Assembly: GCA_027488965.1 (NCBI GenBank)
Contig: JAIYAO010000146.1
Coordinates: 1-34,606, forward strand
Length of the DNA: 34,606 nucleotides
Direction: 5' to 3'
DNA from: Alphaproteobacteria bacterium
GTDB taxonomy: Bacteria > Pseudomonadota > Alphaproteobacteria > Caulobacterales > Aquidulcibacteraceae
Under the pieces are notes generated by a model. That model had not been told where the DNA came from. It saw only the letters and a program-made list of their open reading frames with translations, and did not search any database. The translations under genes and the position numbers were made by a program. Shown here in pieces: positions 2,867 to 5,318 of the stretch. Position 1 is the first letter of the stretch, and each line of letters opens with the position of its first letter.

Positions 2867-4588
2867 ATGACCAGACGCTGGGACAAGTCGAAACTGCCCT
2901 CCCGCCACACCACCGTGGGGCCGGAGCGGGCGCCGCACCGGTCCTATCTCTATGCCATGGGGCTGGGCACGAAGGAGATCGAGCAGCCGTTCGTGGGCGT
3001 CGCCTCCTGCTGGAACGAGGCGGCCCCCTGCAACACCGCGCTGATGCGCCAAGCGCACGCGGTGTCGGCCGGGGTGAAAGCCGCCGGCGCCACGCCGCGC
3101 GAGTTCTGCACCATCACCGTCACCGACGGCATCGCGATGGGCCACGAGGGCATGCGCTCCTCGCTCGCTTCGCGCGAGGTGATCGCGGACTCTGTCGAAC
3201 TCTCCATCCGCGGCCATGCGTACGATGGGCTGGTCGGCCTCGCCGGCTGCGACAAGTCGCTGCCGGGCATGATGATGGCGATGCTGCGGCTCAACGTGCC
3301 GAGCGTGTTTCTCTACGGCGGCTCCATCCTGCCCGGCGTGTGGCGCGGGAAGGAAGTGAACGTGCGCGACCTCTTCGAGGGCGTGGGCGCGCACGCGGCC
3401 GGCAAGATGTCGCTGGAGGACCTCTGCGATCTCGAACAGCACGCGTGCCCCGGCGATGGCGCGTGCGGGGGCCAGTACACCGCCAACACGATGGCGTGCG
3501 TGGCCGAGGCGATCGGATTGGCGCTGCCGCTGTCGGGCGCGCTGCCCGCGGTCTACGAAAGCCGCGATGCCTACGCCGAGGCGAGCGGGCGCGCGGTGGT
3601 CGATCTCATCGAGAAGAACATCCGCCCGCGCGACATCTGCACGCGCGAGGCGTTCGAGAACGCGGCCATCGTGGTGGCGGCCACGGGCGGCTCCACCAAC
3701 GGCGGCCTGCACCTGCCGGCGATGGCGCACGAGGCGGGCGTGTCGTTTACGCTGAAGGACATGGCGGAGGTGTTCAGGCGCACGCCGTGGCTTGTGGATC
3801 TGCAGCCCGGCGGCAAGTACGTGGCCAAGCACATGGGCGAGGCGGGCGGCGTGCCCGCGCTGCTGCGCGTGCTGCTCGACGCAGGCCTTCTGCACGGCGA
3901 CGTGATGACGGTGACGGGAAAGACCCTGCGCGAGAACCTGGAAGGCGTCGCCCTGCGCGCCGACCAGGACGTGATCCGCTCCATGAGCAATCCGCTCACC
4001 GCGGACGGCGGCGTCGTGGGCCTCTGGGGCACGCTCGCGCCGGACGGCGCCATCGTGAAGATCGCGGGCCTGCCCTCCGTGTCGTTCCGCGGTCCTGCGC
4101 GCGTGTTCGACGGCGAGGACGCGTGTTTCGCGGCGGTGTCGAACCGGGACTACAAGGAAGGCGAGGTGCTGGTCATCCGCTACGAGGGCCCGCGCGGCGG
4201 CCCCGGCATGCGCGAAATGCTGTCCACCACCGCCGCGCTCTACGGGCAGGGCATGGGCGACAAGGTGGCGCTGATCACCGACGGCCGCTTCTCCGGGGCC
4301 ACGCGCGGTTTCTGCATCGGTCACGTGGGCCCAGAGGCGGCGATGGGCGGCCCCATCGCGCTGGTGCGCAACGGCGACATGATCGCCATCGACGCAGGCG
4401 CGGGCCGCATTGATCTGGAGGTCAGCGACGCGGAGCTGGCGGACCGCAAAAAAGCCTGGAAACCCCGACAGACCAACTACAATTCCGGCGCGCTCTGGAA
4501 GTACGCGCAGCAGGTGGGCCCCGCGCACCTCGGCGCTGTGACACATCCGGGCGCGCAGGCGGAAACGCACATGTATGCGGATATCTGA
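2867..4588 (+). CDS. ilvD: Dihydroxy-acid dehydratase (IlvD/Edd family)
   Basis: This enzyme dehydrates 2,3-dihydroxy-isovalerate and 2,3-dihydroxy-3-methylvalerate to the 2-keto acids that become valine, leucine and isoleucine. The 573 residues carry the three iron-sulfur cysteines: C48 (VASCWNE), C128 (GLAGCDKSLPG) and C200 (GDGACGGQYTANTM). TDGIAMGHEGM supplies metal ligands at about 87-96, and the lysine that becomes carbamylated is K130. C-terminal motifs TDGRFSGATRG and IGHVGPEA are also present. The three-cysteine layout fits DHADs, but related sugar-acid dehydratases share the fold, so substrate is inferred from overall similarity. Its position directly after valS suggests a branched-chain amino acid theme but could be chance. 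The caspase-like gene starts 10 bases after the stop. Confidence 0.93.
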   Translation: MTRRWDKSKLPSRHTTVGPERAPHRSYLYAMGLGTKEIEQPFVGVASCWNEAAPCNTALMRQAHAVSAGVKAAGATPREFCTITVTDGIAMGHEGMRSSLASREVIADSVELSIRGHAYDGLVGLAGCDKSLPGMMMAMLRLNVPSVFLYGGSILPGVWRGKEVNVRDLFEGVGAHAAGKMSLEDLCDLEQHACPGDGACGGQYTANTMACVAEAIGLALPLSGALPAVYESRDAYAEASGRAVVDLIEKNIRPRDICTREAFENAAIVVAATGGSTNGGLHLPAMAHEAGVSFTLKDMAEVFRRTPWLVDLQPGGKYVAKHMGEAGGVPALLRVLLDAGLLHGDVMTVTGKTLRENLEGVALRADQDVIRSMSNPLTADGGVVGLWGTLAPDGAIVKIAGLPSVSFRGPARVFDGEDACFAAVSNRDYKEGEVLVIRYEGPRGGPGMREMLSTTAALYGQGMGDKVALITDGRFSGATRGFCIGHVGPEAAMGGPIALVRNGDMIAIDAGAGRIDLEVSDAELADRKKAWKPRQTNYNSGALWKYAQQVGPAHLGAVTHPGAQAETHMYADI

Positions 4589-4598
4589 GGGGGCGCCG

Positions 4599-5318
4599 AT
4601 GCGTCGGATCACGCGACGGACGCTGGCAGCGGGCCTCGCTGCGCTCCCGACACTTGCCCACGCAAAGGCGCCCGGCCCGCGGGTGCAGATGTGGGCGACC
4701 GCCAGCGGCGGCGAAACGCTCGATGGACCGAACGGCTCGGGCAATCCCTTCGCTACGGCGCTGATCGAGACGATGGGCGACGCCTCGCTCGATTTCTACA
4801 ATGCCTGCGCGCAGATCCGCGAGCGCACCTATACCCTCAGCAACGGCTTCCAGGCGGTGGAGACGCTGAACGTCGAACGGGCGCCGGAATGGCGATTTGC
4901 GCCGCAGGCGCGCGAGCGCCGCGTCGCGCTGGTGCTGATCTTCTCCGACTATTCGGCCTCCGATGCGGCGGCGTCGCTGCCGGGCGCGGCCACGGACGGT
5001 GCGCGGATCGAACGCGCGTTCGCCGGCGCACAGTTCGAAACGCGGCTGGTCGCCAACGCGTCGCGGGCCTTGCTCGCCATCGAACTCGCGGACTTTTCGC
5101 GCCGCTCCGCCCGCGCCGATGTGGCCGCAATCTACGCCACCGGCCACGGCGTGGAAGTGGGCGGCGTCCAGTACGTACTCTTCGGCGATCACGTGGTGGC
5201 CGATGGCGACGCGGGCCTCGCGCGCGCTGCACGGTGGGCCGACATCGCGCCCGCCGCGCGCGCCCGCAAGCTCAACCTCACGATCTGGGCCGGCTGCCGC
5301 AACAACCCGTTCGCCTAG
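4599..5318 (+). CDS. Exported caspase-like (C14-fold) protein with p10-like half preceding p20-like half
   Basis: I read 239 residues from ATG 4599, preceded by a purine-rich GAGGGGG. An in-frame ATG at 4575 would overlap ilvD and spoil the signal peptide. Residues 1-22 form a twin-arginine-like signal peptide (two RR pairs, TLAAGLAALP, cleavage after AHA). Residues 106-239 match a caspase p20 domain: RRVALVLIFSDY strand, LPGAATDGARIERAF helix, ATGHGVEVGG with catalytic His183, and a final strand ending AGCRNNPFA with catalytic Cys233. In ordinary bacterial caspases the Cys is followed by a p10 part with a pattern like FATAPGxxAxDGxGxNSPFxxALL. Here such a stretch (WATASGGETLDG, SGNPFATALIE, residues 32-56) lies before p20, and the chain stops six residues after Cys233. 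The usual Asp two positions before Cys is Ala231. It is probably periplasmic. Substrate is unknown. Confidence 0.8.
   Translation: MRRITRRTLAAGLAALPTLAHAKAPGPRVQMWATASGGETLDGPNGSGNPFATALIETMGDASLDFYNACAQIRERTYTLSNGFQAVETLNVERAPEWRFAPQARERRVALVLIFSDYSASDAAASLPGAATDGARIERAFAGAQFETRLVANASRALLAIELADFSRRSARADVAAIYATGHGVEVGGVQYVLFGDHVVADGDAGLARAARWADIAPAARARKLNLTIWAGCRNNPFA

Follow-up and report, generated by a model that had tools for sequence, protein, structure and literature searches.

A gene at positions 4599..5318 on the plus strand of the window (the whole stretch of DNA that was analysed, 34,606 nucleotides from an alphaproteobacterial contig) raises the question of whether a caspase can occur in nature with its two subdomains reversed, p10 before p20. 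The answer favoured here, with a probability of roughly 0.85, is that, as the initial annotation proposed, the gene encodes a naturally circularly permuted protein of the caspase family (C14), and that it belongs to a conserved bacterial family in which this order has been passed on by descent. The open reading frame starts at the ATG at 4599 and specifies 239 amino acids and a stop; its G+C content at codon positions 1, 2, and 3 (71, 57, and 85%) is coding-like, and the sequence GAGGGGG lies 6-12 nt upstream of the ATG, at 4587-4593. Residues 1-22 (MRRITRRTLAAGLAALPTLAHA; 4599..4664) form a predicted signal peptide. Its assignment to the Tat type, as in the initial annotation, is by motif, since the segment has a twin-arginine motif and an AHA end (RRITRRTLAAGL...AHA); export is a prediction. 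The p20 catalytic subdomain occupies residues 107-239 (4917..5315), as indicated by Foldseek matches to caspases and MALT1 and by a match of Pfam Peptidase_C14 (PF00656) to residues 107-191 (profile positions 1-87 of 233, E 3.8e-8; the match of an ortholog reaches E 3.3e-16). Within it lie the predicted catalytic His183 (5145..5147), in a GHG motif, and the predicted nucleophile Cys233 (5295..5297), after which the chain ends with the six residues RNNPFA. The reading frame, its coordinates, both catalytic residues, and the six-residue tail are all as first annotated. Membership in C14 is indicated both by the PF00656 match and by the His-Cys dyad. Residues 1-105, on the other hand, match no Pfam family; because Pfam sees only part of p20, routine annotation would label the protein a partial caspase.

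The identity of the N-terminal half emerges from comparison with ordinary caspases of the same genome and its relatives. Residues ~28-102 align with the segment that lies C-terminal to the catalytic Cys in these proteins: along them, the match to the p20 part of the query comes first, and the match to its N-terminal part follows beyond the Cys. A profile made from the p10 part of the permuted family alone was searched against 71 ordinary bacterial caspases (E<0.01). It matched 64 of them C-terminal to p20, with one additional match inside p20 and none before it; among the matches listed, the p10 match begins 14-32 residues past the end of p20. In controls, the best E value was 0.6 on reversed sequences and 0.0018 on shuffled ones. 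The p10 subdomain, with its conserved GNPFA core, is thus placed by profile at residues 28-102 (4680..4904), N-terminal to p20. The p10-like stretch originally noticed at residues 32-56 is real, though too short by both the alignment and the p10-only profile, and the possibility raised with it, that residues 24-105 might not be p10 at all, is contradicted by the profile match. Four junction residues (103-106; 4905..4916), delimited by the alignment and by predicted secondary structure, connect what would be the old C-terminus, the end of p10, with the old N-terminus, the first strand of p20. Orthocaspases are defined as having p20 without p10; here p10 is present, on the N-terminal side. Since this p10 falls below Pfam detection, surveys would nevertheless file the protein as an orthocaspase.

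Structure prediction gives the same order. The AlphaFold2 model of the window protein (15-sequence alignment) has a pLDDT of 82.6 and a pTM of 0.82. When it is compared with the PDB by Foldseek, the four best matches are engineered circularly permuted caspase-2 (cpCasp2; 8vp4, 9c2y), aligned over 244-259 columns with a TM score of 0.66 and E values of 9e-8 to 6e-7, the superposition being loose (rmsd ~4 A). Native caspases and MALT1 match in p20 only, over ~130-150 columns with E 1e-4 or worse. A model of the family member from Geomonas paludis (36 sequences; pLDDT 93.6, pTM 0.92) again has cpCasp2 at the top (TM 0.74, E 6e-10), and its best native match, over 131 columns, is four orders of magnitude weaker. 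For both models, then, the E value of cpCasp2 is roughly three to four orders of magnitude better than that of caspases of native order. The Foldseek comparison is order-dependent, and because chain order is kept, an end-to-end match to cpCasp2 is a direct test of permutation; the check by structure prediction proposed in the initial annotation therefore supports a permuted fold. (A search of solved structures with the single sequence of the window protein returned chance matches only.)

The protein is one of 36 distinct permuted proteins, counted after removal of duplicates, and nearly all of the 35 others are encoded by stand-alone genes. The organism's own taxonomic family (60 genomes) contains no other copy; its order (398 genomes) contains 14 full-length orthologs, all in one other family and nearly all stand-alone open reading frames, with 35-40% identity and E values of 1e-27 to 8e-41. 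A scan of 84,980 species genomes with the alignment of these orthologs detected the family, with 36 loci of which 35 are full-length permuted proteins; a single-sequence scan of genome contigs found none. Among 398 genomes sampled evenly across the phylum there was no further full-length permuted case; plasmids gave no full-length match with an ortholog as the query, and phages gave no match. The family is rare. By record title its members span about eight phyla, namely Pseudomonadota (several classes), Nitrospirota, Spirochaetota, Thermodesulfobacteriota, Lentisphaerota, Gemmatimonadota, Eiseniibacteriota, and Actinomycetota, the labels of several resting on titles of metagenome-assembled genomes (MAGs). 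Many members come from MAGs; the four that belong to cultured isolates are those of Geomonas paludis Red736, Lamprocystis purpurea DSM 4197, Terrabacter sp. Root181, and Sphingopyxis sp. H073. The closest homologs have the p10-p20 order as well, and its recurrence in orthologs from independent assemblies and from isolates rules out a frameshifted or misassembled ordinary caspase. One candidate, L056, was rejected and left out of the count, being an ordinary caspase in domain order (p20-p10) that is extended by chance into non-coding sequence. In Humibacillus xanthopallidus (L115:3965-4501) there is a permuted copy whose p20 is out of frame past the first strand, apparently a decaying gene. The source genome also has eight further caspase-family genes of normal order (C61, C15, C60, C140, C158, C89, C2, and C131), several with C-terminal parts that resemble, by eye, FGE-sulfatase, MORN, or WD repeats.

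In trees computed from sequences restored to the un-permuted order (p20|p10), the 36 permuted proteins are separated from 51 canonical ones by a branch with support of 100/100, and the split recurs, less strongly supported (93), in a tree of p20 alone. The permuted order thus appears from these trees to be shared by descent, and a single clade means that a single permutation event suffices. Within the trees the window protein sits among a wider set of members and is not closest to the orthologs of its own taxonomic order. In two congeners, ilvD is followed directly by a LysE gene, 12-24 bp apart; in the source genome the permuted gene occupies this position, 3' of ilvD. The simplest reading is that the gene was gained by transfer in the source genome, the alternative being its loss in both congeners. 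In nearly all genomes of a related taxonomic family (L066-L072, L074-L079) the gene comes after serA; the conserved arrangement there is serC, GNAT, serA, caspase, SnoaL-like protein, which places the caspase gene downstream of genes for amino-acid biosynthesis. Considered for what they might say about function, the neighbourhoods yield no common pathway, the serA link being confined to one family and the neighbours elsewhere being different.

The GHG motif and the Cys-Arg pair are kept in 36/36 proteins, and in all of them the tail past the Cys is 3-22 residues long. Also invariant over all 36 are, among others, GN in the p10 core GNPFA and Asp133 (4995..4997), which we take to correspond to the first acid of the metacaspase S1 pocket. 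The position two residues N-terminal of the Cys (Ala231 in the window protein, 5289..5291) is A, G, or S in every member, whereas in 69/70 ordinary bacterial caspases it is the Asp of a DxC motif. In metacaspase structures this Asp and the equivalent of Asp133 presumably form the pocket for the basic residue. With one of the two pocket acids lost, Arg/Lys specificity is not to be assumed; the Arg/Lys-directed cleavage suggested in the initial annotation becomes doubtful, and judging by the sequences even peptidase activity is not assured. A hydrophobic segment at the N-terminus is present in most orthologs, and a twin-arginine motif in many. By a simple window measure the segment is strong in 27/36 proteins and is weaker or uncertain in several more; L106, L108, and L113 have no evident signal peptide, and L100 probably lacks one too. 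Export is predicted for the family, but it is not universal.

Three other explanations have to be weighed against a permuted enzyme. The gene might be a non-functional remnant, left over when a tandem caspase (p20a-p10a-p20b-p10b) was deprived of both its ends. Tandem caspases of 531 amino acids do occur in the same taxonomic order (L015 and L017), and the window protein can be aligned without a break across their p10a-p20b junction (E 7e-6). Yet 35 other distinct proteins have the same size and order and an intact dyad, no p10-p20-p10 intermediate was found, and the second p20 of the tandem genes groups apart from the permuted family. Conserved stand-alone orthologs and this separate grouping speak against a remnant, and we regard it as exceedingly improbable. 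The permutation may nonetheless have arisen by way of a tandem duplication, although the p20 tree does not support L015 and L017 as surviving intermediates. (Both tandem proteins, from genomes G037 and G041, have a Tat-like start, and their second p20 is degenerate, with GYG and DCGR in place of GHG and DACR.) A different objection concerns the fold: the p10 of one chain could complete the p20 of another in a domain-swapped dimer, so that no permuted monomer would form. The junction between p10 and p20 is indeed short, ~4-6 residues, and caspases are known to dimerise naturally; against this, pTM is high in both monomer models from AlphaFold2 (0.82 and 0.92), and each of them matches single cpCasp2 chains end to end, which makes domain swapping very unlikely.

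Finally, the permuted protein could be a pseudo-enzyme that has kept the fold but works through binding or regulation, or by serving as a decoy for canonical caspases. The loss of the DxC Asp in every member would fit such a role, as would the location of two members without signal peptides, each immediately 3' of a type I-like metacaspase gene, with gaps of ~35 bp (L113) and ~40 bp (L106). However, His and Cys are invariant in 36/36 proteins across very large divergence, which is unusual for a pseudo-enzyme, and known pseudo-orthocaspases have their dyad residues replaced (PMC6426788). A pseudo-enzyme is consequently judged unlikely, if less so than a swapped dimer. At these two loci, in Terrabacter and in a Rhodocyclaceae MAG (L113:3024-3917 and L106:1529-3949), the upstream metacaspase gene is of the DSCHSG type, and the one at L106 also has an N-terminal GDSL-like part.

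A naturally permuted caspase has its nearest likeness in design in proteins made in the laboratory. In engineered cpCasp2 (8vp4, 9c2y) and in reversed caspase-3 and -6, the small subunit precedes the large one and the termini lie at the inter-subunit linker, as in the bacterial family. The engineered proteins, however, are man-made from human caspases, Asp-specific, and joined by a designed linker, whereas the family is natural, bacterial, mostly predicted to be exported, and ~14% identical to them. Type III metacaspases of secondary-plastid algae also have a p10-like domain N-terminal to p20 (PMC5756287, PMC6426788). They are eukaryotic and are reported to be close to type I metacaspases, to depend on Ca2+, and to lose an N-terminal domain on activation; the family is bacterial and ends right past the Cys, and with A, G, or S in place of the DxC Asp in 36/36 proteins it does not have their acidic S1 pocket. 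Bacterial orthocaspases and type I metacaspase-like proteins have p20 and p10 subdomains homologous to those of the family and the same His-Cys dyad, and their paralogs of ordinary arrangement in the same taxonomic order usually have a signal peptide, as the family does. They differ in the opposite domain order, the DxC Asp (69/70), and long C-terminal extensions with further domains. The closest solved sequence relative of the family's p20 part is the paracaspase MALT1 (E 5.5e-10), which has no p10 before p20, has death and Ig domains, and retains DxC.

In ordinary caspases the linker between p20 and p10 must be cut or moved. In the permuted protein the old termini would be fused, the end of p10 to the start of p20, through the short junction, and the new termini would lie where other caspases have their p20-p10 linker. 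Once the signal peptide is removed, the chain would probably fold as a single caspase unit, in which p20 carries the His183-Cys233 dyad and p10 completes the sheet. The C-terminus of the chain would already be free beside the catalytic Cys, and an activating cut between p20 and p10 would therefore be neither possible nor needed. Engineered cpCasp2 needs no inter-subunit cleavage for its constitutive activity (PMC7760212). From the constitutive activity of such engineered single chains we infer an exported protease that is ready once processed: the likely role would be that of an exported cysteine endopeptidase, active once folded and processed, with a substrate pocket probably less acidic than those of metacaspases and orthocaspases. 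Control would then reside in export and removal of the signal peptide, and not in zymogen cleavage. (For MaOC1, the sole characterised orthocaspase, release of p20 from the chain is reported to be a prerequisite for activity; PMC5756287.) It is conceivable, though rather unlikely as a whole, that natural reversed caspases are active uncut and are kept harmless by their topology, the signal peptide near the active site serving as a pro-domain, so that activity appears only upon export and processing. It is a guess that the signal peptide, brought near the active site by the permutation, also inhibits the unprocessed chain.

In a large 2019 survey, which covered 11,208 prokaryotic sequences, proteins with p10 before p20 were reported to be absent. 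Its p10 model derived from the Pfam seed, with a 30-bit cut-off, and the blindness of Pfam to the p10 of this family would explain the miss. The known precedents for the order are the algal type III metacaspases and laboratory reversed caspases; in the open-access literature no later report was found. The permuted family corrects the survey result of zero such proteins in prokaryotes, and it bears on whether a separate permutation gave rise to the type III metacaspases of algae. Control of caspases is normally explained by cutting or rearranging the p20-p10 linker. As this family is without that linker by construction, it is a natural test of whether the fold needs one and of other modes of control, and it supplies small single-chain caspases from culturable bacteria.
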